A DNA stretch of 27,630 nucleotides from a virus. This document shows positions 12,101 to 26,320 of the stretch, piece by piece. The translations under genes and the position numbers were made by a program. A model generated the notes under the pieces. That model saw only the letters and a list, made by a program, of their open reading frames with translations. It had not been told where the DNA came from and made no database searches. The DNA is taken from the IMG/VR virus record IMGVR_UViG_3300025769_000655, positions 1 through 27,630 of that record; one strand, written 5' to 3'. Within the stretch, counting starts at the first letter, position 1, and each line of letters starts with the position of its first letter.

Positions 12101-15100
12101 TTATCTTTCTTCAAATCTTATTATATACCCTCTAGTTGATAGATTTGGTCCCAATCCATCATCATTAATAGCGTAAACGCCTGCTCTTTCAGTTGTAACT
12201 CTTCTTACTGTTTCACCTTCTTCTTTGTTAAACATAGCTCTAGCCATAATTGCATTAGTTATCATATTTTGAGCTTGTTCTTTACCTGCATTTGCAACTC
12301 CTGACATAAATTCTTGACTATACCTAACTATTCCATCTCCTGCACCTTGTTGAGTCTCAAATATGTTTCTTCTACCAGAAGTACTGCTATATTTAAATAT
12401 TTCTCTTGTTCTACCAGCACCACTAGGGTGACCAAATTCTACTCTAGGGGAAGATTTTACTTGACCTTTTCTTCCAACATTTTGATATAAGTAAATAGCT
12501 CTTGTTGGCATTTCTGGATCTCTAAACGCCAATGTGATATTATTACCATTTCTTTCAACTTTTGGTTTTACTTTTTTGAATGTTGCACCCGGTGCACCAG
12601 TAGGGCTTGTTCTTTTTAAATTCATTTCATAATTAAATATTCCTAATTTATCAGCTTGATCTCTAGATTTAGTTCCTTTCTTAAAAGTAAAAACTACTTC
12701 AGTTAAATTTTTTGATGGTGTATTTGTTAATGCTGTCATAGGATTAGTTAACCCTGCTCCTGAATAGTTGTAAGCTAAATAAGATTGAGCTGTTGTTGGC
12801 ATATTACGAGTAATAATTGCTGCTTGTTCAGACCCACCTAATCCTTTAAAATGTGACGCTGTTAAAAATCTGTTTTCACTTCCTTTAACTCCACCAAATC
12901 CACCGTGAATTAATTTAGGACCAGTATATCCTTCAATTCCTGCAGAAGTTGCTTTTGCAACTGCTCTTTGTTCCGCTAGTAAATAATTAGTTGTTCCTAT
13001 GTTTCTTGCATTTGTTCCCGGACCTACACCCATACCTCCAAGTTTGTCAGTTCTTCTGTTTATTCTTCCTTGAATAGAATCTCTTCTTTTTCTTAATATT
13101 TTTATGTCTTCTTTAGCTACTTTTATTGATTTCTTAACTGCTTTAATTTCATCAACAAAATCAGCTCCACTTCCTCTACCTATCTGGCTTATGTCTCTTC
13201 TGGTTTGTCCTGCATACATTGTTGTAGCGCCTTCATAAGATATTGAACCACCTCTAACCTGTACTCCTGTTACAAAGTAATCACCTGCACTTTGGGATAT
13301 AAGAGCACCATCTGTAGTTTTAAGGAAATCATCATAAGATTTTTTACCTTCAACTCTTCTGATTTCAGCTAAAAACTTTTCACCTGTATATACATTTTTA
13401 GCTTCTAATTGTGCTAATAATTCTGTTTTTGTAGTTCCTAATGTACTTAATTCTCCAAGTCTTTTATTACTTGTAGTGACAATGCTTTCAAGTCTAATAA
13501 TTTCTTGCTTTACATTATTTAACTCTGCTTGTAGAAGAGGAAGTTTAAATTGACCTGTAGTAGGATCATAAGCAACGTGTCTTCTTTCATAAACTGATCT
13601 TTCATAACTAACTGTTTTCTTTTTTCTCTTACCCTTAACTTTTCTTTGATAAGTAACTGTTTTTGTTCCTGTTTGAATTTTTTTGCGACCACTCATATTT
13701 GAAAACTTAATATTTAAATCATCAGCAATTGCACTCATAATTTTTGTTTGCTCACCTTCTAATATTTTTGCATATTGTGGATTTTTGCGTAGTTCGTTGA
13801 CGTAATGCTTACCAGCAGTTCTTCTTCTTTCTTCTGCTGAAGATATTTGAATTTTACCTTTTCGAGCACCAACAGAAGCAGCAGCTGTTGGGTTTACAAC
13901 TTCTACTCCAAATATTTTTACAAATTTATCAAAATCTACAACTTCTAGTTCTACTTTACCTTTTCTTTTTATAATTTTTACAGCACCTTCTTTTTGTGCA
14001 TATTCAATAGTCTGCTTTGCATTCATCTTTACAGCTTTACCACCTACTTGAACTTCAAAAGCAACTGTGCTTGATTTACTAAGATCTACAGCACCAACAG
14101 TCATATTGAATTTTTTATTAATTACAGCAGTGGGAGGCATAAGTATGTCATCTTTATATCTATTACCACCAGCAGTATATTTTCTAGCTTTACCTCTACC
14201 TTTAGCTTTTAATTTTTGAACAGGAGCATAAATAGGAACTAAACCTTCAAAGCCTGTTAGAGCACCTGCACTAACTTCTGTAATTTCACCTTTTTTATAT
14301 TTTTTTGTTTTATCGTCATATACTGATTTTCTAACTTTAGCTTTTCTTTCACCTTGCAATATCAACATAGTTTGTTTAGCACCTTCTTCTATTGCATCTA
14401 AATCTAAACCACCTTTCATCCAATCTGGAACTTCTTTACCTGTTGCACTAAAGTAATTAAACATAAAGTCATCAACTTCTGCACCTTGAACATTTTGCCA
14501 GTTTGGATTTGATTGATATGGATTTTTACCACCTTTGTAATTTAAATGTTCTTCACTACGTTTTTTAGCTTTTCCACGTTTTGTTTTCTTTTCAAATTGT
14601 TTTTGCCAAACTTCTCCATCTTTAGTCAACCACATATAACGTAGAGCATCTGCTCTTTCACTAGAAACAACTTTTACAAGATTTGCCATATTGTTTTTAT
14701 CTATTTTTTTACCTGCTGCTTTTGCTTTTTTTCTACCTTCTTCGTCTAAATAAAATTTAGCTAAACCTTTTACACCTATCTTTGCGTATCTACTAGCAAA
14801 CTGTAAGGATCTTTCGGCAAAATAAGAAGGAGGTAAAGGTTTTGGTTTTTTTGGATTTTTAGGATTGAACATTAAACCTCCGAAGTTTGCAATCATTGCA
14901 TAAGGAGCTTTGTCTGCAGTTGTAGAAGTAGCAGTTGCTCCACCAATTCTTATTTCCCAAAGTGCAGCAGTGTAAGGATCTGGCTTATAAACAGGGTCCA
15001 TTAACCACACAGATTCAGCTAGGTTATTTGCTGGATAATTTATCACACCTACACCCGGTCTTTTTTCTGAAAATTTAGTTCTAGGTATTGACACTTGAAG

Positions 15101-15640
15101 ACCCATAGCTACAACTCCTTGAAGCATATCTCCAAACTGTTTTAAGTTTCCAGCACCAGTCATAGCTTTATAAAATTTAGCTGTGGTCTTTGGACCATTT
15201 CTTTTAAACATTGCAGAAGTTACTTTGTGTAATCCTTTTTGTGCAAGTGGTTGTAAGTAACGACTTCCTACGTAACGACCAGCAATATTATCAGGAAGTA
15301 TGCTACGTATCATTGCATTAGATGCTTGACCAACCATTCTACCACCGATAGACCTTGGTATTCTTCGTCCAACAGCAGCTGGTCCTTGCCTAAAAGCTTG
15401 AATGTTTCTAATGCTTTTAAGACCACCGGCTAAAGAGTTAGAAAGTGGATTCATAATAGCTTTAGTAGTAGGTAATGTTGCAGCTACATCTCTAAATTTA
15501 CTTAATACACTATAACCAACACTTGTTAATCTGTTGACTGCTTTACCACCGGGTTTGCCTTTTTTACTTTTAAATGGCTCACCTTTATGTTTAGCGTTTT
15601 GAACGCCTGCGTCTCTAGGTCTACCTGATCCAGTAACCAC
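12101..15640 (-). CDS. Giant basic 1179-aa protein in the tail-completion (HK97 gp10-like) position
   Basis: The start is GTG at 15640, 6 nt after the head-closure stop. In HK97-like gene order this slot normally holds a tail-completion protein of about 130-150 aa; this one is roughly eight times longer. What can be seen: a basic Gly/Arg/Lys-rich N-terminus (1-160); 225-290 with KAPYAMIANFGG and PPSYFAERSLQFASRYA, which faintly recalls the YA-x-x-E-FGT and end-helix pattern of gp10-type proteins; Lys-rich linkers (300-500); a very basic patch near 660-690 (KGKRKKKTVSYERSVYERR); coiled coils about 700-745 and 825-865; and a C-terminal part with another gp10-like SPRVEFGHPSG (about 1064-1073) and a helix IVRYSQEFMSGVANAGKEQA. 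No signal peptide, membrane segment or catalytic motif is evident. It may be a hugely expanded neck protein or an internal, DNA-contacting virion protein. Function is unproven. Confidence 0.8.
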   Translation of the reverse strand: MVTGSGRPRDAGVQNAKHKGEPFKSKKGKPGGKAVNRLTSVGYSVLSKFRDVAATLPTTKAIMNPLSNSLAGGLKSIRNIQAFRQGPAAVGRRIPRSIGGRMVGQASNAMIRSILPDNIAGRYVGSRYLQPLAQKGLHKVTSAMFKRNGPKTTAKFYKAMTGAGNLKQFGDMLQGVVAMGLQVSIPRTKFSEKRPGVGVINYPANNLAESVWLMDPVYKPDPYTAALWEIRIGGATATSTTADKAPYAMIANFGGLMFNPKNPKKPKPLPPSYFAERSLQFASRYAKIGVKGLAKFYLDEEGRKKAKAAGKKIDKNNMANLVKVVSSERADALRYMWLTKDGEVWQKQFEKKTKRGKAKKRSEEHLNYKGGKNPYQSNPNWQNVQGAEVDDFMFNYFSATGKEVPDWMKGGLDLDAIEEGAKQTMLILQGERKAKVRKSVYDDKTKKYKKGEITEVSAGALTGFEGLVPIYAPVQKLKAKGRGKARKYTAGGNRYKDDILMPPTAVINKKFNMTVGAVDLSKSSTVAFEVQVGGKAVKMNAKQTIEYAQKEGAVKIIKRKGKVELEVVDFDKFVKIFGVEVVNPTAAASVGARKGKIQISSAEERRRTAGKHYVNELRKNPQYAKILEGEQTKIMSAIADDLNIKFSNMSGRKKIQTGTKTVTYQRKVKGKRKKKTVSYERSVYERRHVAYDPTTGQFKLPLLQAELNNVKQEIIRLESIVTTSNKRLGELSTLGTTKTELLAQLEAKNVYTGEKFLAEIRRVEGKKSYDDFLKTTDGALISQSAGDYFVTGVQVRGGSISYEGATTMYAGQTRRDISQIGRGSGADFVDEIKAVKKSIKVAKEDIKILRKRRDSIQGRINRRTDKLGGMGVGPGTNARNIGTTNYLLAEQRAVAKATSAGIEGYTGPKLIHGGFGGVKGSENRFLTASHFKGLGGSEQAAIITRNMPTTAQSYLAYNYSGAGLTNPMTALTNTPSKNLTEVVFTFKKGTKSRDQADKLGIFNYEMNLKRTSPTGAPGATFKKVKPKVERNGNNITLAFRDPEMPTRAIYLYQNVGRKGQVKSSPRVEFGHPSGAGRTREIFKYSSTSGRRNIFETQQGAGDGIVRYSQEFMSGVANAGKEQAQNMITNAIMARAMFNKEEGETVRRVTTERAGVYAINDDGLGPNLSTRGYIIRFEER

Positions 15641-16767: not shown

Positions 16768-17409
16768 TTACAACTCTTTTTCACGATTTGCTTTTCGATG
16801 ACAAAGCATACAAATTGATTCTCTTTTATTTCTATCTTTTTTAGATTTAGCATATTTATCTAATGATTTTTCTTTTGCACAAACTAAACATACTTTACTA
16901 TTTTCATCAGACTTTATGGTCTCTTTATATTGCTTAGTAGCTTCTCTAAGACCCACTAAACATTCTTTACAGTATTGAGTGTATCCACTTTTATATTTTT
17001 GAGATTTTTCAAATTCATTTACATCTTTTTCTTCTTGACATTCTAAACATTTTTTCCAATTAGGATTCCAAGAAAGCTTTTCTGCTTTAGCCTTAGCTTC
17101 TTCTACTTTTTCAACAAGTTCAGGCATCTCTTTCATCCAAGCTTTAAATCTTTCATAACCTATTGGAAGTTCTTCATATGTTTTTGTTGTTGTTAAAGAA
17201 CCTTTCCCTTCTGCAATTCTACTTAAAACAATTTCAGCTATTTCAGAATTGTAAGCTGACCTAGGTGCAACACCTGCTTGTTCTCTTAATTGTCTAACTC
17301 TTTCATCAGACACTCCCCATTCTTCAGCCCATAGAGATAACTTTTTATGTGGTTCTGATAAAAATAATTCTCTAGCTTCTTCTACTGTTGGTGCTATTCT
17401 ATTTGGCAT
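16768..17409 (-). CDS. HTH plus double zinc-finger DNA-binding protein
   Basis: 213 aa. The N-terminal part contains a helix-turn-helix-like segment (LSLWAEEWGVSDERVRQLRE, about 24-43). A helical linker (about 85-112) leads to two C-terminal metal-binding modules with the same spacing, Cys-x2-Cys-x22-Cys-x2-Cys: Cys121/124/147/150 and Cys174/177/200/203. Such Cys4 modules occur in phage DNA-binding and homing-nuclease-associated proteins. A strong AGGAGG precedes the ATG. It sits between the connector and the HNH gene and is followed by hairpins and a terminator. Likely a sequence-specific DNA-binding protein, either a late regulator or a partner of the HNH enzyme; neither role is proven. There is no nuclease motif of its own. 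Confidence 0.75.
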   Translation of the reverse strand: MPNRIAPTVEEARELFLSEPHKKLSLWAEEWGVSDERVRQLREQAGVAPRSAYNSEIAEIVLSRIAEGKGSLTTTKTYEELPIGYERFKAWMKEMPELVEKVEEAKAKAEKLSWNPNWKKCLECQEEKDVNEFEKSQKYKSGYTQYCKECLVGLREATKQYKETIKSDENSKVCLVCAKEKSLDKYAKSKKDRNKRESICMLCHRKANREKEL

Positions 17410-18435: not shown

Positions 18436-19689
18436 TTAGAAGTTTGTTATAGAACAGAAACTTTCAGCTCTGTAAATAGGGAAACCTAGTCTCATTGTAA
18501 GCCTGATTGCCAATTGATTCTTCGCAAAGAAGTCACTATGACTATCGGATACTGCTAGGTCAACACCTTGTCTCATAACAACGTGTGCAGCTTCGCCACC
18601 ACCGAATTTACCGACTAATGCGGTACCTTCAGCAATAACAGTTGATGGAACAACTTTTAGACCCCAAACTCTTGGAGCAGCATCAGCACCAAATCCACCT
18701 GCAACGACAAACAATGGGTTCTTAGAACCGGATGTTGTTACGTCAGATACGGATGTTACGATTTGATACCAATCTGAAGGATGCATCACAATAGCGTCTG
18801 CTTCTGTGAAGGCATCTTTTCTAATTTCTGTAATGGCTTGGTAAATTTGTCCAAGTCTTCCTAATTCACCAGCATATGGTAAAGCGTAATCAAATGTATT
18901 GATTCCGGATTTATTTAATATACCTGTTAGGTTTGGAGCAGAACCATCACCATTAATAAGTTGATTGTCCATATTAAGCTTCATCATTGTTGAGAGACGT
19001 GAGTTTACATAACCTTGAACACCTGCTACATCTGCTAGTAATTCATCAGTGACTGGCAAGAATGTTGCCATTTTTCTGATGGACTCTGTTCTCTCAGTGA
19101 ATGCTAATGCACCTTCATTAGATGTACTAATGTCAGCAGCTTCAGCAACTGATCCAGCATTGTTTGTGAAAGTGGTTTCTTCGAGATAGACATATGCATT
19201 TTGGTTTGTTTCGATTTGATCGAATAATCCAATAACACTATCTGGATCTCTAAGAGCAGTTTCTAAAATGCCCGGAGTTCTGAGAGACTCTGGCGGATAA
19301 CCAGTTGTGTTTAAAGTTGTTTTGTACTCGTATGGTGAAAATTCACCTTTAGAATCCACACCTTTAACTCCTTGATTCTTGTATGCATTATATGCATCTG
19401 AATCAGTAAGTTGTTCTCCAATTGTTTTAAAAGCTTTAGCTTCTTCAACTTGTGGAACAGGCATTTCATTTACAGGTTCATTATCTATTTCGAGAGCTTT
19501 TGCGTTAGCTGCTTTAGATTCTTCGATTTTGAGATCTTCGACCATACCTGCTAAGTCAGCATTAGCTTTTGCAATGCTTTCTTTTTGATCAGCAGTATAT
19601 TTGCCGTTTTCGTCTGCGCCATCGAAGATATTTTTAAGCTCTTCACGCGATTTTACAATCTGTTCTTTAAGATTGTCAACTTTACTCAC
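18436..19689 (-). CDS. Major capsid protein (HK97 fold)
   Basis: 417 aa, starting at GTG with a strong AGGAGAT site. Residues 1-65 are a charged coiled coil (VDNLKEQIVKSREELKNI, ESIAKANADLAGMVEDL), the delta-domain used as an internal scaffold and removed by the prohead protease. Then come an N-arm (about 85-140) and the HK97-type body: LRDPDSVIGLFDQIE, AEAADISTSNEGALAFTERT, IRKMATFLPVTDELLADV, a helix VQGYVNSRLSTMMKLNMDNQ, then LINGDGSAPNLTGILN, IVMHPSDWYQIV and a C-terminal LAIRLTMRLGFPIYRAESF. All are typical of the family. It sits directly after the protease gene and before a hairpin. The delta-domain cleavage point probably lies between about 80 and 130, not determinable here. Confidence 0.95.
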   Translation of the reverse strand: MSKVDNLKEQIVKSREELKNIFDGADENGKYTADQKESIAKANADLAGMVEDLKIEESKAANAKALEIDNEPVNEMPVPQVEEAKAFKTIGEQLTDSDAYNAYKNQGVKGVDSKGEFSPYEYKTTLNTTGYPPESLRTPGILETALRDPDSVIGLFDQIETNQNAYVYLEETTFTNNAGSVAEAADISTSNEGALAFTERTESIRKMATFLPVTDELLADVAGVQGYVNSRLSTMMKLNMDNQLINGDGSAPNLTGILNKSGINTFDYALPYAGELGRLGQIYQAITEIRKDAFTEADAIVMHPSDWYQIVTSVSDVTTSGSKNPLFVVAGGFGADAAPRVWGLKVVPSTVIAEGTALVGKFGGGEAAHVVMRQGVDLAVSDSHSDFFAKNQLAIRLTMRLGFPIYRAESFCSITNF

Positions 19690-19711: not shown

Positions 19712-19726
19712 TACTTATACTTCAAT
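19712..19726 (-). promoter_or_regulatory. 15-nt element shared with the region upstream of the major tail protein gene
   Basis: Identical to the 15 nt at 11287-11301. Here the bases also encode the last three residues and stop of the protease (ATT GAA GTA TAA). The two host sequences are otherwise unrelated, and both lie just upstream of the strongest expected structural genes. Confidence 0.45.
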
Positions 19727-20851
19727 GTCTACAGTCTCGGCTATAAGCCTTTGACCTTCGACCCATTCAGCGTCAAAATCTTCGTCAGCTGATTCGCTGT
19801 TATCCTCTGGTTCTTCGGTAACTTCTGAGACAGGAATCTCTTCAGTTTCTTCTTCCTCGGAATCGATGTCAGAGACATCGTTGTCGTATTCGTTAACTAC
19901 CGTATTCTCATCAACGTCTACGTCACCAGTTGGTTGCTCTTCTACTTCTGACTCTGAAACTTCTTCCGCACCGAACTCATCGACAAATGAGTCTAATTCA
20001 GCCCAAGCATCGCTGAGATCGTCCTGAACTGCGCGAAGTGCTTCAGTAGCTTTTTCGCCTAATTTTCTACCGTCTTTTTCACGGAGGGACGAAATTGCTT
20101 TCGCCCTTGTTATAAGGTTCTCTAATGCAGCAAGCACATCTTTGACCTCTTCAGAAAAAGTCTTATTGACTTCTTCTGAAACTTTTAATTCTTTTTCTTC
20201 TTCCTCAGCAGTTTCTTTAGCAATCTCTTCTGCTTCAGGATCTTCTGCTGGAGCTTCCTCAACAGGAGCTTCTTCAACCTCTTCTGGTTTTTCTTCAGGT
20301 TCTGGTTGATTCATACTTTCTGTAGTCATAACAGCTTTTTCTTCTGAAAGTTCTTCTAACAACTGAGTATTAGATTTAATAGCCATTGTGTATGTTTCTT
20401 GATTTGCTCCAACAAGAACTGGTGATACTTCGTAGACAGTTAGACCTTTAAGAAATCTAACATCTTCTTCTTCATCAGAACCGTCTTTTTTAAATTTACC
20501 GTATTCAGAATCATCAACTTTAAAACCGAAAGACCATTGTTGTAATTCACCCATAGCCTTTACTAAGTTATAAGCTTCTCTTCCTGATTCTGTATCCATA
20601 AAGAACTGACCTTTGAATGTCGCTTTATCATCGTCTTGTTCTATTTGACCTTTACCAATTGGCATATCCCATTTGTGAGCCCATACCATAGGCACATCTC
20701 CTGATTTAAAACCTGATTTGATAGAACCTGCTTTTACAATGTCGCCATCTGAATCTACTTTATCGAATACCGAAAAGACCGCAGCGACTTCGCCTTTTTC
20801 GTCATTCTTTATTTCTAAGTCGATTGACTTAATATCAAAATTATCTGACAC
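19715..20851 (-). CDS. Prohead protease (HK97 gp4-like, U35-type) with long acidic scaffold-like tail
   Basis: 378 aa from a GTG with AGGAG five bases upstream. Residues 1-155 are the protease: GEVAAVFSVFDKVDSDGDIV, then MVWAHKWDMPIGKG with His59, ELQQWSFGFKV with Ser107, and LTVYEVSPVLVGANQET with Glu141, the expected catalytic residues of this serine protease family. It should trim capsid delta-domains during maturation. Residues 156-378 are very rich in Glu and Asp, with one helical block (LAALENLITRAKAISSL, LRAVQDDLSDAWAELDSFVD) set in disordered acidic sequence; this resembles a scaffold. An ATG at 20329 (Met175) could start a separate scaffold product, but no strong ribosome site precedes it. 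The 85 nt between this gene and the portal hold no convincing small gene. Confidence 0.92.
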   Translation of the reverse strand: MSDNFDIKSIDLEIKNDEKGEVAAVFSVFDKVDSDGDIVKAGSIKSGFKSGDVPMVWAHKWDMPIGKGQIEQDDDKATFKGQFFMDTESGREAYNLVKAMGELQQWSFGFKVDDSEYGKFKKDGSDEEEDVRFLKGLTVYEVSPVLVGANQETYTMAIKSNTQLLEELSEEKAVMTTESMNQPEPEEKPEEVEEAPVEEAPAEDPEAEEIAKETAEEEEKELKVSEEVNKTFSEEVKDVLAALENLITRAKAISSLREKDGRKLGEKATEALRAVQDDLSDAWAELDSFVDEFGAEEVSESEVEEQPTGDVDVDENTVVNEYDNDVSDIDSEEEETEEIPVSEVTEEPEDNSESADEDFDAEWVEGQRLIAETVDIEV

Positions 20852-20936: not shown

Positions 20937-23765
20937 TTATTTAGTTATGTCAGATATGATTCTTAGACTTGAAATAGGCATTGTTACTCTTCTGTCTGTT
21001 CTCTTATGTGAACCGTCTTCCAAGATTTGCCAGACTTGCATAGTAGCTTCTTTATCTGTGTTATTTACAGATACAACTACACCGTGAACTGTTGATGGTG
21101 GCTGTGGACTTTTATCTATACTCCAAGATACAGATTGACCTGTTCTAACAGATTCTGCTTTAGTCATACTTTTACTAGAGTTAGGATGTCCTGATGGAAG
21201 TAGGTCTGTATCGTATGGTTTTCTTTTAAATTTACCATTTCTTAGTGCGTACAAAAAGCCGTTAACTCTGGCTAACGCCCACTGGTCAGCACCTGAAACA
21301 TTACCCCTAACTGAACCCGGATTTGTTCTATAAGCACCAACGCCTCTGTTAAATACTTTACCTAAAGTACCTGCAGAAGTTTTATATTTAGCACTACTTG
21401 AATTATGATCAGCAGCTTTCTGTCTTAAAATTTTTCTTATTCTAGGAGAGATAGCTTTCATTACCATTTCTGCTTCTAGTTCAGCAGCTTTTTTTCTACG
21501 TTCTCTAACAAGTTTTTTTCTTTCGTTAATAACAGCTTTCATAGCTGGAACACCTATGTTAAGAACTCCACCCCATTTGATAGCAGCAATAACACCGTTC
21601 AATCTTTTATCATTTTGATGTCTACCCATATAGCGTTCTCTTCTTCTTACCCAGTTAAGAACAGATTCACTTCTATCACCTGATTGATACTTAGTCCAAT
21701 TTCTAAAAGCATCATTACCAGTAAATGATGTTGGAGGATTACCACCATTGCCAGCCATTCTCCAAATCTCTCCCCAATTCTCTTTTAGATCTTTTGCGTA
21801 ACCGTATGGGAATTGTTTATACTTTGAATTTGAAATTCTAACTGCTTGATTCATACCCGGACTTGGAAAGTTAGTATCGTCTTTAGCTTTAACAATTAAT
21901 TTATTGTAATCTTCTTCACTTGAACAAGGCATATAAAATTTACCAGCAGGTCCTCTATCTACTTCGTGATATCCATCACAACCTAATTCCTGTGCTCTAG
22001 CTATAGCTTCTTCAGGAGTGGTAAAAGTATTTCTCATAAAAGCTGCTGGAGCTTTTTCTTCTGGACTATTCAATTTATCACCTCTCTCAAACATTGCTTC
22101 TGCTTCTTCTAAACTTACTTTTAATTCTTCTATTGCTCTATTTATCCAATGTTTTTTGGTTCTTTCAAAGGATTCGTGTGAACTACAAGGCATATAATAA
22201 GTCATACCTTCAATAGTATGTTCGTGATAACCTTCACAACCTATTTCTTTAGCCCTGCGTTCTGCCGCTTCTATCGTATCATACATCCACATATTCCTAG
22301 AAGGAGTTGGTTTGATCGTTTGTCTTGTAGATTCAGGTGCACCATCACCTGTGTCCATTACATCTTTCTTTTCTAATTCTTCTTGAGTTACAAATGTTTG
22401 ATCAATTGTTGCAGCAGGTATTTCTAATGGATCATCTTCACCAACAGGTATTGATTGATCTTCTGCATCTTCTTGAGCAGGTTTACCAGTTGCATCAACT
22501 TGTTGCATATTCATTGGTCTTAGGTAAACATTGTGAGAATCATCTGCGGCTAAACCAACTGCATTTCTAGCTTCACCAATTGTTGCCCACCCACCTGAAA
22601 CAGCAGTGTTCATTCTTTTGTAAAGCTCATCTTGATCTTGTGATAATGCTCTTACATCTTCAACATTATATTTACAATAAACATTGTCATCTTCATCAAA
22701 CTCAGGAAGTAGCTGATAAGTTAATTCTTCTGCAACTGTTCTCCACAAAGGAACAAGTTTTTGCTCAGTAAAATATTCTCTTAATTCTCTAGTATTGTTG
22801 TAGGTCGCTGAATTCAATCCAGCCCCGAGACCGGCGAGCACTGCTGGGACACCCATAACAGCTGCAACTCTTTCTTCAGGTAATCTTCTTAGTTCAATTA
22901 AGTTCATATCACTAGGACTAAAAGATACTACGTCTATATTCATAGCTCCAGTAAGAACCATAGGCATACCTCTATTAGCACCACCAAATTTAGATTTATA
23001 CATCTCTGATATTGCTTCTGCTTCTTCTCTTGTTGGACCACCCATAGCATCTGATGAAGGAGAAAGTATTACACCCGGTATTGCCATATTATGAAGCAAG
23101 GCTGTAGAATATTGACCTGCTGCTTCATCTCCTAATATTTCTCTAAGAACTGTTTTAATTGGAGCATATCCTTTTCTGTGATCGTTAGGATCAATTCCTG
23201 TTCTGATATGAATCATATCTTTAGGATCTATATCGACAGTATCTGTAGTAGGTGTGTATTCATATCTTGTAATTAATCTTTGTTGATCACCTTTTGGTTT
23301 TATAAAATTAGGCATAAGAGGAACTAATTGTACAACTTGTCCTTTCTTGTTTCTATTTTTAAAAAGGTAAGCATCTCCTTCTACGCTGATAGCTGATACT
23401 AAATAATGTGAAAGTATTGCACCAGACATAAAAGGATTTGGTCTTTTAAATAATTTTGAAACAGGGTGTTTAGCAAGAACTATATCTTGTCCAACTTCAT
23501 CTTCTTTAAATACATTTAATTTTGGTTCAGCAAAAGCTGTAGCTAAAACAGAAAGACAGGCAGCAACTGCGGAGTTACCAGAACCATTACCAATGTCTTC
23601 TAATTTGTCAGAAGGAAAGTATCCTGATTGTGTATTGTATCCGTATACAGATCTATCCAGCGCTGAGGCTAGTGATTGATTAAAATTTAATCTTTTTAAT
23701 TCTTGTCTCCCACTTGGGGTAAAACGTTTCGTAAATCTTTGAAACGCGTTTAATTCTTCAGCCAA
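20937..23765 (-). CDS. Portal protein (HK97 family) fused to a multi-domain C-terminal extension
   Basis: 942 aa from a TTG with AGGAG six bases upstream. Residues 1-425 are a normal HK97-type portal: SGNSAVAACLSVLATAFAEP, VSKLFKRPNPFMSG, GDAYLFKNRNKKGQ, PKDMIHIRTGID, GYAPIKTVLREI, ELRRLPEERVAAVMGVPAVL and GLNSATYNNTRELREYF. The extension then carries: two copies of a Cys/His module (about 493-535 and 579-621) with GCEGYHEH...YYMPCSSHESFE and GCDGYHEV...FYMPCSSEEDY; a region 640-735 with YGYAKDLKENWGEIWRMAGN, RRERYMGRH and GVIAAIKWGGV; a region 793-860 with GTLGKVFNRGVGAYRTNPGS and QWALARVNGFLYALRNGKF; and a Tudor/SH3-like end (867-942) with VRTGQSVSWSI and VHGVVVSV. Similar modules occur in other phage portal or protease fusions, as far as I recall. 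Portals are usually 400-500 aa. Whether the extension is cleaved off is unknown. Confidence 0.93.
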   Translation of the reverse strand: MAEELNAFQRFTKRFTPSGRQELKRLNFNQSLASALDRSVYGYNTQSGYFPSDKLEDIGNGSGNSAVAACLSVLATAFAEPKLNVFKEDEVGQDIVLAKHPVSKLFKRPNPFMSGAILSHYLVSAISVEGDAYLFKNRNKKGQVVQLVPLMPNFIKPKGDQQRLITRYEYTPTTDTVDIDPKDMIHIRTGIDPNDHRKGYAPIKTVLREILGDEAAGQYSTALLHNMAIPGVILSPSSDAMGGPTREEAEAISEMYKSKFGGANRGMPMVLTGAMNIDVVSFSPSDMNLIELRRLPEERVAAVMGVPAVLAGLGAGLNSATYNNTRELREYFTEQKLVPLWRTVAEELTYQLLPEFDEDDNVYCKYNVEDVRALSQDQDELYKRMNTAVSGGWATIGEARNAVGLAADDSHNVYLRPMNMQQVDATGKPAQEDAEDQSIPVGEDDPLEIPAATIDQTFVTQEELEKKDVMDTGDGAPESTRQTIKPTPSRNMWMYDTIEAAERRAKEIGCEGYHEHTIEGMTYYMPCSSHESFERTKKHWINRAIEELKVSLEEAEAMFERGDKLNSPEEKAPAAFMRNTFTTPEEAIARAQELGCDGYHEVDRGPAGKFYMPCSSEEDYNKLIVKAKDDTNFPSPGMNQAVRISNSKYKQFPYGYAKDLKENWGEIWRMAGNGGNPPTSFTGNDAFRNWTKYQSGDRSESVLNWVRRRERYMGRHQNDKRLNGVIAAIKWGGVLNIGVPAMKAVINERKKLVRERRKKAAELEAEMVMKAISPRIRKILRQKAADHNSSSAKYKTSAGTLGKVFNRGVGAYRTNPGSVRGNVSGADQWALARVNGFLYALRNGKFKRKPYDTDLLPSGHPNSSKSMTKAESVRTGQSVSWSIDKSPQPPSTVHGVVVSVNNTDKEATMQVWQILEDGSHKRTDRRVTMPISSLRIISDITK

Positions 23766-23779
23766 TTATATCTCCTAAA

Positions 23780-25009
23780 CTAATAAGCATTCCATTGCCT
23801 ACGCTCATTCAAGTTCAGGACACCGTATCCAAGCGCATCAACCATATCATCGTGTGCTCCAACAGGGAAAGTAAATAATTCTCTTTCCATATCATCAAGC
23901 CAAGGAGCGTCTCCCTTAAAATAGACATCTCCAGCTTCCATTCTAGCACTAAGTGTCAATGCTCGTGCAACTTTGTCCTTATCAGGTTTAACTTCTTTAA
24001 CACGCATTCCTTGACGTTTTGCCATTTGTATTAAAGAAAGTTGAAAACCTTGACGTTCCATAGTAACCCAACCAGCAGAATGTTTATCAATCATTCTTTT
24101 AATTGCACTTAAAATATCTGGTCCTTCAAATCTTTGTCTTAAACAATCAAGAACAATCATCTTATTATCTTTGGTCAAAGCAACAGCTATTATAGCAGTA
24201 TAGTCAGCATCTTCTTCTACTGAAGTAGCAATGTCTGTCGCTAAAAATATTGTGCATTCTTTTTTAAAATATGTTTCTCCATCTAATACAAAGTCTCCAT
24301 TATCATCGTAGTTCCAATATTTCATCCACTCAGGCTTAATCATTCCTTGACCAGCTTCTACAAACTCAGCCATATATTCTTGAGCAAAAACAATAGAACC
24401 AACTTCTGTTTTAGCTTGATCTACTTCATCAGGATCTATTCTTGGATTATCGTAAGTTGAAAATCTAAACCTTTCCCAGTTATCTGCAGTACCAGCAGTT
24501 TCCCATAAATTATAAAACCAATTATTCATACCCATAGGAGTACTAATAAATAATGCAGAACCTTTTCTTTCAGTTAATGTAGGTCTTAATACTTCTTGCC
24601 ATACTTCAGGTTTTACGAATGCAGCCTCATCCATAACAATAAAATCTAAACCTTCACCTCTTAGTCTTTGTGGATTATCTGCAGATCTTACAGCTATCTG
24701 TCCACCATTAGCCATAGTAAACTCCATATTAACAATTGAAATATTTGGTTCTATTTCTTTAGGGAATGATGCAGCTGAAGCAGCAATATCTCTCCAACCT
24801 ACACGAGCAATAGCAAAAGTAGGTGCTACCCACCAAGCACGACCACCTCGGAGTGCTACCTCCATACACATTTGTACACCAAGTCTAGTTTTACCAAATC
24901 GCCTACCAGCACATAATATTTTCCAACGTGCTTTTGAGTCAAATACTTTTTGTTGAGCTTCGTGTAAAGGTGGAAGCTTTGGATGATATAGTTGAGATTC
25001 AATTACCAT
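23780..25009 (-). CDS. terL: Terminase large subunit
   Basis: 409 aa. The ATPase half shows Walker A GRRFGKT (35-41), Walker B FIVMDEAAF with Asp127/Glu128, and the coupling motif FISTPMG (154-160). The nuclease half (RNase H-like) shows TDIATS with Asp259, and AHDDMVDALGY with Asp387, Asp388 and Asp391. It forms the motor that pumps DNA into the prohead through the portal and cuts the concatemer. The portal gene starts 14 nt after its stop. No small terminase subunit is recognisable in the window; it may lie further upstream or be too diverged to recognise. The ATG lies immediately after a 9-bp hairpin that overlaps its ribosome binding site. Confidence 0.97.
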   Translation of the reverse strand: MVIESQLYHPKLPPLHEAQQKVFDSKARWKILCAGRRFGKTRLGVQMCMEVALRGGRAWWVAPTFAIARVGWRDIAASAASFPKEIEPNISIVNMEFTMANGGQIAVRSADNPQRLRGEGLDFIVMDEAAFVKPEVWQEVLRPTLTERKGSALFISTPMGMNNWFYNLWETAGTADNWERFRFSTYDNPRIDPDEVDQAKTEVGSIVFAQEYMAEFVEAGQGMIKPEWMKYWNYDDNGDFVLDGETYFKKECTIFLATDIATSVEEDADYTAIIAVALTKDNKMIVLDCLRQRFEGPDILSAIKRMIDKHSAGWVTMERQGFQLSLIQMAKRQGMRVKEVKPDKDKVARALTLSARMEAGDVYFKGDAPWLDDMERELFTFPVGAHDDMVDALGYGVLNLNERRQWNAY

Positions 25010-25191: not shown

Positions 25192-25434
25192 CCATTTATA
25201 CTTTATTTTCTTAGCTTCGTTATATTGTTTAAAAGATTTTTCACTTAAATCACTAGGATCTCCGTTCCATTCTACATCTACAGGAGTTTCAAACATAACA
25301 TTACTGCTTATTTTTCTTTTAGTTGGACTTTCACAAAGTAGACACTTAATGACTGGGTCTTCAGTTATTTTATGAGTTATTTCGAACAAATGTTCGCATT
25401 TCTCATTTAAGCATATATAATCATATCTAGGCAA
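25189..25434 (-). CDS. FmdB-like zinc-ribbon protein
   Basis: 81 aa. The N-terminal pattern MPRYDYICLNEKCEHLFE, with Cys8-x4-Cys13 and later Cys31-x2-Cys34 (KCLLCESP), matches the FmdB/CxxC_CxxC_SSSS zinc-ribbon family, whose members usually begin MPxYDYxC. The C-terminal half (VEWNGDPSDLSEKSFKQYNE) is charged. The start overlaps the end of the glycosyltransferase gene by 8 nt. In bacteria some members are thought to be regulatory; in phages the role is unknown. It is the last gene before the non-coding region upstream of terL, where a small terminase subunit might have been expected, but it does not look like one. Confidence 0.85.
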   Translation of the reverse strand: MPRYDYICLNEKCEHLFEITHKITEDPVIKCLLCESPTKRKISSNVMFETPVDVEWNGDPSDLSEKSFKQYNEAKKIKYKW

Positions 25435-26320
25435 GTTTAACTCCTGTGTGTTTCTCTAATAATTTTACCTTATCTATGTGTTTTGATTTGTAATCTTCCC
25501 AAATAGTTATATAATCTAATTCTTGATGTTTGATCAATTCATAAGGTTGTAAGTAATCTTTGTAGTTCCACCTACTTTGCCCGTTATGTGTATGCAGTAT
25601 GGTTCTATCTTGATAAAGATGAGCAACAGTTGGTTGATTGAATAAAGGAGTTAGTAATGTATATCCCTTATGAAGTAATTCTGCTGTTTGTATCCAATGT
25701 TCTGTGTGCATTGGTAAATCTGATAAATCTTCAAAAAAATTACTTTTACTAAAAGAAAAGTTTCCATTCCAAAGTAAGCACTTCATTACACCGTTATCAT
25801 CATATTCGTGTATGTCAATATATTCAGGATACATTGTAAAGTATTCTTCATTTCCGTATTTATATTTTTGTCCTGTAAATTTAGGATATCCTAGTTTATA
25901 TTGATGTGGAGCAAACGACCTGTTTTCTCCGTCTGAATAAAAATGACCTGCAAGACCAGTAAATATAACATTATTACTAAATTTATCTATTTCTTTTTTA
26001 AGTAGAGTATCCCAATGTTTACCAAATAAAGTATGAGAATCAATAGACAAAACATACTCTTCTCCTTGATACATAGAACCAGCTTTTATTCTTCCTTTAC
26101 CAATTCCTAAGTTTTGCCAATTAAGATTATCAGTAAAGATAGACATATTGTGTTCTAAAGAAAAATCATATAACCATTTTTCCCAAAACTCATTTTCACA
26201 TAATGCATAAACACCAAAGTGTATTTCACTAGGATTATCAGCTTGTGCTAAACAGTTTTCTATTGTATGAAAAAATTCTTGATCGTGTATTACAGGAATA
26301 CCAATATATATTTTATTCAT
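25427..26320 (-). CDS. GlcNAc-transferase-type glycosyltransferase (GT-A, PF11397-like)
   Basis: 297 aa. The N-terminus (KIYIGIPVIHDQEFFHTIENCL) is a GT-A nucleotide-sugar fold start. VLSIDSHTLFGKHWDTLL carries the DSH metal-binding motif (Asp94-Ser-His96) in the form used by the Skp1-type UDP-GlcNAc transferase family. Later features also match: WNGNFSFSKSNFF, HTEHWIQTAELLHKGYTLLTP and PTVAHLY, like the E-x-x-x-x-A-x-L-x-x-x-G-Y and H-L-Y signatures of that family. It starts 8 nt inside a microgene and overlaps the FmdB-like gene. It may glycosylate a virion protein or a host component; the acceptor is not visible. There is no signal peptide or membrane segment, so it acts in the cytoplasm. 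Confidence 0.85.
   Translation of the reverse strand: MNKIYIGIPVIHDQEFFHTIENCLAQADNPSEIHFGVYALCENEFWEKWLYDFSLEHNMSIFTDNLNWQNLGIGKGRIKAGSMYQGEEYVLSIDSHTLFGKHWDTLLKKEIDKFSNNVIFTGLAGHFYSDGENRSFAPHQYKLGYPKFTGQKYKYGNEEYFTMYPEYIDIHEYDDNGVMKCLLWNGNFSFSKSNFFEDLSDLPMHTEHWIQTAELLHKGYTLLTPLFNQPTVAHLYQDRTILHTHNGQSRWNYKDYLQPYELIKHQELDYITIWEDYKSKHIDKVKLLEKHTGVKLA

Follow-up and report, generated by a model that had tools for sequence, protein, structure and literature searches.

The window, i.e., the whole 27,630-base stretch of DNA analyzed here, is an IMG/VR virus fragment from a marine virus of bacteria, and its minus strand (on which all window features given below lie) carries a head and tail gene cluster in the order TerL-portal-S78-MCP, then a head-tail adaptor, tail genes and the tape measure. 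The terminase large subunit (23780-25009) is followed by the portal ORF (20937-23765), an S78 prohead protease (19715-20851; PF04586, E 6e-21) with a 213-residue C-tail of net charge -62, and a major capsid protein of HK97 fold (18436-19689; PF05065) whose prodomain boundary reads EYK123/TTLNTTGYPPESLR, the slash here and below marking a cleavage position, known or predicted. Just upstream of the terminase lies a glycosyltransferase-like gene (25427-26320; GlcNAc family, E 2e-9), and such a gene also occurs near the head genes of Salinibacter phage L082. The head-tail connector cluster includes a small protein with endonuclease VII/HNH-like and Stc1-like matches (16768-17409), and a 1179-aa protein that matched nothing in PHROGs and nothing credible in Pfam (12101-15640) is encoded between the head and tail genes.

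The extended portal gene

The portal ORF is a single frame of 942 codons, with TTG as its start codon and AGGAGA just upstream. Its HK97-type core (22557..23573, residues 65-403) matches the full-length Phage_portal profile PF04860 (positions 1-320 of 321, E 4e-62), the gene lies between terminase and protease, and the protein continues past the core with a C-terminal extension of ~510 residues. An initial annotation of the interval 20937-22490 (portal residues 426-942) had described a five-module extension of about 500 residues on a complete HK97-type portal, a description confirmed by the one 942-aa ORF with its PF04860 match and two DUF3721 matches.

The extension consists of a disordered linker and five folded modules, termed M1, M2, B, D and T. 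The linker (22293..22475, residues 431-491) is acidic, with a net charge of -11 and a pLDDT of about 32. M1 (22122..22292, residues 492-548), a DUF3721 module with the pattern GC-x-GYH...YMPCSSH, was assigned from PF12518 and conservation, and M2 (21891..22052, residues 572-625) from a second PF12518 stretch and phmmer; the two stretches give E 3e-16 and 59.4 bits, against a curated cut-off of 27. The helical B block (21459..21872, residues 632-769), delimited by alignments and AlphaFold, belongs to no family found in Pfam or PHROGs. The D block (21177..21458, residues 770-863), also helical, is DUF5824-like: it scores 24.0 bits against PF19141 in the window (curated cut-off 25) and 28.2 bits in the relative L053, and 82 of 85 relatives match that profile. 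The T block (20940..21176, residues 864-942) is a putative Tudor/SH3-like barrel from AlphaFold and weak Foldseek hits, with no match in Pfam. Within the window extension there was no match to the Phage_Mu_F profile PF04233; sequence searches returned no relatives of solved structure, and no cellular homologues were confirmed among the genome contigs searched. Nothing useful on DUF3721 or DUF5824 was found in open-access papers. Separate translation of the extension from an internal start was considered and is unsupported, a weak AGGA before M494 being the only signal.

An AlphaFold model of the extension based on 85 relatives predicted M1, M2, B, D and T well (pLDDT mostly 75-96), with low confidence in the packing between modules (pTM 0.42), and B-D modeled alone was all helical (pLDDT 88, pTM 0.70). 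Foldseek of the whole extension returned only Tudor/SH3 barrels, with probabilities of 0.98-1.0 but weak E values of 0.01-0.2; T is a beta barrel in the AlphaFold model. For B-D, Foldseek found no match in the PDB at E<=0.001.

Relatives of the extension were confirmed in 144 IMG/VR stretches in a first scan and in more than 500 in wider scans. L002, which comes from another sample, has the full 942-aa ORF with 100% identity over the extension; in L011 and L004 the ORF is open up to the contig ends, and diverged versions (50-90% identity) also keep the frame open across the junction. Core, B and D share one ORF in 60 of 82 loci. A stop codon between the two parts in close relatives, which would have pointed to two genes joined by an assembly or sequencing error, was looked for and none was seen in L002, L011 or L004; the sole broken relative, L003, has its portal core split, probably by a frameshift error, and given identical or related stop-free fusions on dozens of independent contigs, a joining error can be practically discounted as already refuted.

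Fusion partners of the B and D blocks

Profiles were built for each module and for the portal core, S78 protease, capsid and terminase, and all ORFs of 304 loci were scanned; these loci partly overlap, and counts of arrangements are therefore not independent. In nearly all loci showing both portal and S78 protease, B-D lies between the two, fused to the portal C-terminus, the protease N-terminus or a protease-capsid polyprotein, or encoded as its own gene. The window has the portal as P-M-M-B-D-T (P, portal core; M, DUF3721 module), followed by separate S78 and MCP genes. Other loci have P-K-B-D-T, then S78-M and MCP, with DUF3721 in the protease directly after the catalytic domain; K denotes an additional small module, KYIAEMPNGAYCVISHDDGEIIKCF. 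This KYIAEMPNGAYCVISHDDGEIIKCF module, weakly DUF2188-like, is seen between the core and DUF3721 or B in the portal linkers of L038, L053, L114 and others. L148 and L153 have P-B-D, a MuF gene, M-S78 and MCP. DUF3721 switches between portal and protease, and B-D does so too: it is found on the protease where a P gene is followed by B-D-M-S78 or B-D-S78 and then MCP, and, next to a lambda-type portal, in a B-D-S78-MCP protein that unites protease and capsid and occurs in the isolate Roseobacter phage CRP-831. When B-D is attached to the protease, related portals mostly measure ~400 aa and end 8-20 aa past the core, the exception being one group with portals of 633-642 aa and a different tail. 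The initial annotation had suggested a search for the extension as a separate gene in related phages, and B-D was indeed found alone in L156 and L163-L166, after P and a ~185-aa protein; no S78 protease was detected near these stand-alone genes. In the permuted portal L137:1030-3603 the order is core-D-T-B, which shows the modules to be independent units.

Among phages of Salinibacter ruber, 183 records have B-D at the start of a protein ending in an S78-like domain; in the single record inspected, that end matched Pfam weakly (E 0.08). The CRP-831 polyprotein (L083:4473-7397) is a 974-aa B-like/D-S78 protease-capsid protein labeled just "major capsid protein" in its record, and its arrangement is common to more than 60 IMG/VR loci. 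In L294:3-3782, a lambda-type portal, B2-D, S78 protease and capsid all stand in a single open frame of 1260 aa, perhaps through a frameshift error, perhaps as a genuine single polyprotein.

Judged from these arrangements, B-D is a separable head module that switches fusion partner and no feature of portals as such. Its fusion to either portal or protease suggests that it works with both, in the procapsid. Structural matches in the BFVD viral library, among which are proteins called prohead protease and XkdF (a PBSX protein), agree with the evidence from gene fusions.

The junction between core and extension

In this clade the boundary between capsid prodomain and mature capsid reads ExK/TTLNTTGYPPESLR. 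The clade capsid profile aligns with the HK97 capsid chains 1ohg and 3qpr (E about 1e-34), and the start of the mature chain 1ohg (282 residues), which we take to be S104, extrapolates to within about 3 residues of K123/T124. The HK97 capsid is cut at K103/S104 (PMC10275583). Portal junctions carry a similar site, ExK/ATLTTIGLPPEVER, with EKK467/DVMDTGDGAPESTR in the window; it lies in the linker ~15-40 residues after the core, for example as ESK/ATLTTIGLPPEVER (L114), EEGK/ALLGSVALPPESTR (L061), VETK/DVMDTGDGAPESTR (L017) and LEKK/DVMDTGDGAPESTR (window). The predicted prohead-protease cut in the window, assigned by a capsid-trained matrix and the ExK rule, is K467/D468, i.e., EELEKK/DVMDTGDGAPESTR (22362..22367).

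The position matrix was trained on capsid sites only (9 unique capsid 15-mers), and for 44 of 54 non-redundant portals its best site fell within the 75 residues that follow the core, against 4.7 expected by position and a mean of 7.1 (maximum 22) in 300 column permutations. With a first version of the matrix, none of 638 unrelated ORFs scored above 0.2 bits and portals reached up to 28.7. Glu occupies P3 in 22/23 capsid sites and 25/41 portal sites, compared with 12% Glu in linkers. The variable residue of PE-X-x-R was the same in the capsid and portal of one phage in 15 S/S and 6 V/V pairs, with 9 mixed pairs, a covariation confounded by common descent. Conservation of the site in portals is patchy, with 16 of 57 lacking it by pattern and several matrix scores negative. 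A search for a self-cleavage site in the protease with the same matrix was not significant (12/41 vs 5.9 expected, permuted maximum 26); in the window clade, a similar EEK/AVMTTESMN stands directly after the protease domain.

At the level of sequence, then, the junction of core and extension is a mimic of the capsid prodomain boundary, resembling the site cut in the capsid of the same phages. The earlier suggestion that the extension is a substrate of the prohead protease gains strong indirect support from this motif, which makes cleavage itself a prediction; as to its alternative suggestion of an internal head protein, a location inside the head fits.

Possible roles of the extension

In HK97-type portals the C-terminus points into the head, and the procapsid interior is where S78 proteases act. 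An interior location for the extension fits, as other loci have B-D on the protease or in a protease-capsid polyprotein, and the capsid-like joint makes it probable that the piece enters the immature head and is subsequently removed by cleavage. With modest confidence, we regard the extension as a probable assembly module of the procapsid interior; it would enter at the C-terminus of the 12-copy portal and be cut by the S78 protease at about K467/D468 with removal of the capsid prodomain. Both its entry on the portal and this cut are predictions with sequence support. Portal-borne B-D has a mean net charge of +21 (48/52 positive), vs about 0 to +5 elsewhere, and protease C-tails average -64, a contrast that common descent confounds; before cleavage, at a guess from charge as the one kind of evidence, basic portal-borne B-D might dock on the acidic C-tail of the protease and so link the portal vertex to protease and scaffold. 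The released piece of ~475 residues would then be degraded, leave, or stay with the DNA. Against this account, the motif could serve for binding, as a copied capsid N-arm, and in the polyprotein form B-D would be produced 1:1 with the capsid instead of in 12 copies. It follows that the general function of B-D cannot need the 12-copy number, and that a portal-specific role would not be general. More tentatively, and with rather less than an even chance, B-D may be a widespread unnamed procapsid module coupling the portal vertex to the maturation protease, hard-wired to either, with the copied capsid site tying portal trimming to the same proteolytic switch.

To our knowledge, entry of the prohead protease into the procapsid and its tie to the single portal vertex are poorly understood. 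A module encoded between portal and protease, and fused to either, is a natural candidate for a link between them, and this provides a function hypothesis for families without one (the B block, DUF5824 and DUF3721) as well as precise predictions, namely the position of the cut and the size of the fragment. HK97 itself (S78-type protease gp4, capsid delta domain) shares the portal-protease-capsid order, the S78 protease, the HK97 fold and a K/x boundary at the matching place, but the window portal also bears a capsid-type boundary and a 475-residue C-terminal piece. In giant phage SPN3US, a long propeptide of the portal gp81 is removed by the prohead protease (PMC10052503); that propeptide is N-terminal and 254 residues long, and the head, being of giant-phage type, is very different. 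Roseobacter phage CRP-831 and the Salinibacter ruber phages share the D module (and B or a B-like module) in the head gene cluster, but have it on a protease or protease-capsid protein annotated as hypothetical or as major capsid protein. Searches of the open-access literature turned up neither a C-terminal portal module with a capsid-like site nor protease-cleaved portal C-termini, nor any account of B-D.

A less probable, still credible reading is that the extension, whether still attached or cut off but kept inside, serves as an internal head protein touching the packaged DNA, and is itself ejected or aids ejection, like MuF-type minor head proteins. The basic charge of B-D and the Tudor-like end would suit such a role, as would the MuF gene directly after portal-B-D in L148 and L153. 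Moreover, the closest portals from isolates, 31-35% identical in the core, have long C-termini with MuF domains at the same place, so long portals as such are already known. These portal-MuF fusions (Sinorhizobium phage StopSmel, Microcystis phage Mwe-Yong1, phage ctLpZ231) share the HK97-type portal, the long C-terminal addition and the adjoining S78 protease, but what they add is Phage_Mu_F, with Pfam scores from weak to moderate, in place of the M, B, D and T modules of the window. However, Foldseek of B-D recognized no DNA-binding fold, B-D away from the portal is near neutral, and the capsid-like cut would sever the extension from the portal.

Rather improbable is an uncut junction that mimics the capsid N-arm for binding of capsid subunits at the five-fold vertex, with the extension as a permanent internal crown. 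The likeness is strongest on the primed side (T-T-x-x-x-P-P-E-x-x-R), the retained N-arm in the capsid, but the match extends to the unprimed ExK, and disorder is predicted for the linker, as expected of a protease site.

Finally, the DUF3721 modules could be metal or disulphide switches and the extension mainly a sensor of new-cell or maturation conditions. The C-x4-H-x13-C-x2-H set is nearly invariant: across 90 modules it reads C(98%)-x4-H(100%)...M(100%)-P-C(98%)-x2-H(89%), with Glu replacing the last His in M2 of the window. However, many portal-B-D-T proteins lack DUF3721 and it moves to the protease, which argues that it is accessory and makes a primary sensing role very improbable. The conserved residues are of ligand type, and the modules may bind metal, as the initial annotation suggested. 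One module lacks both Cys and keeps its His residues, a pattern compatible with a disulphide and equally with a metal.
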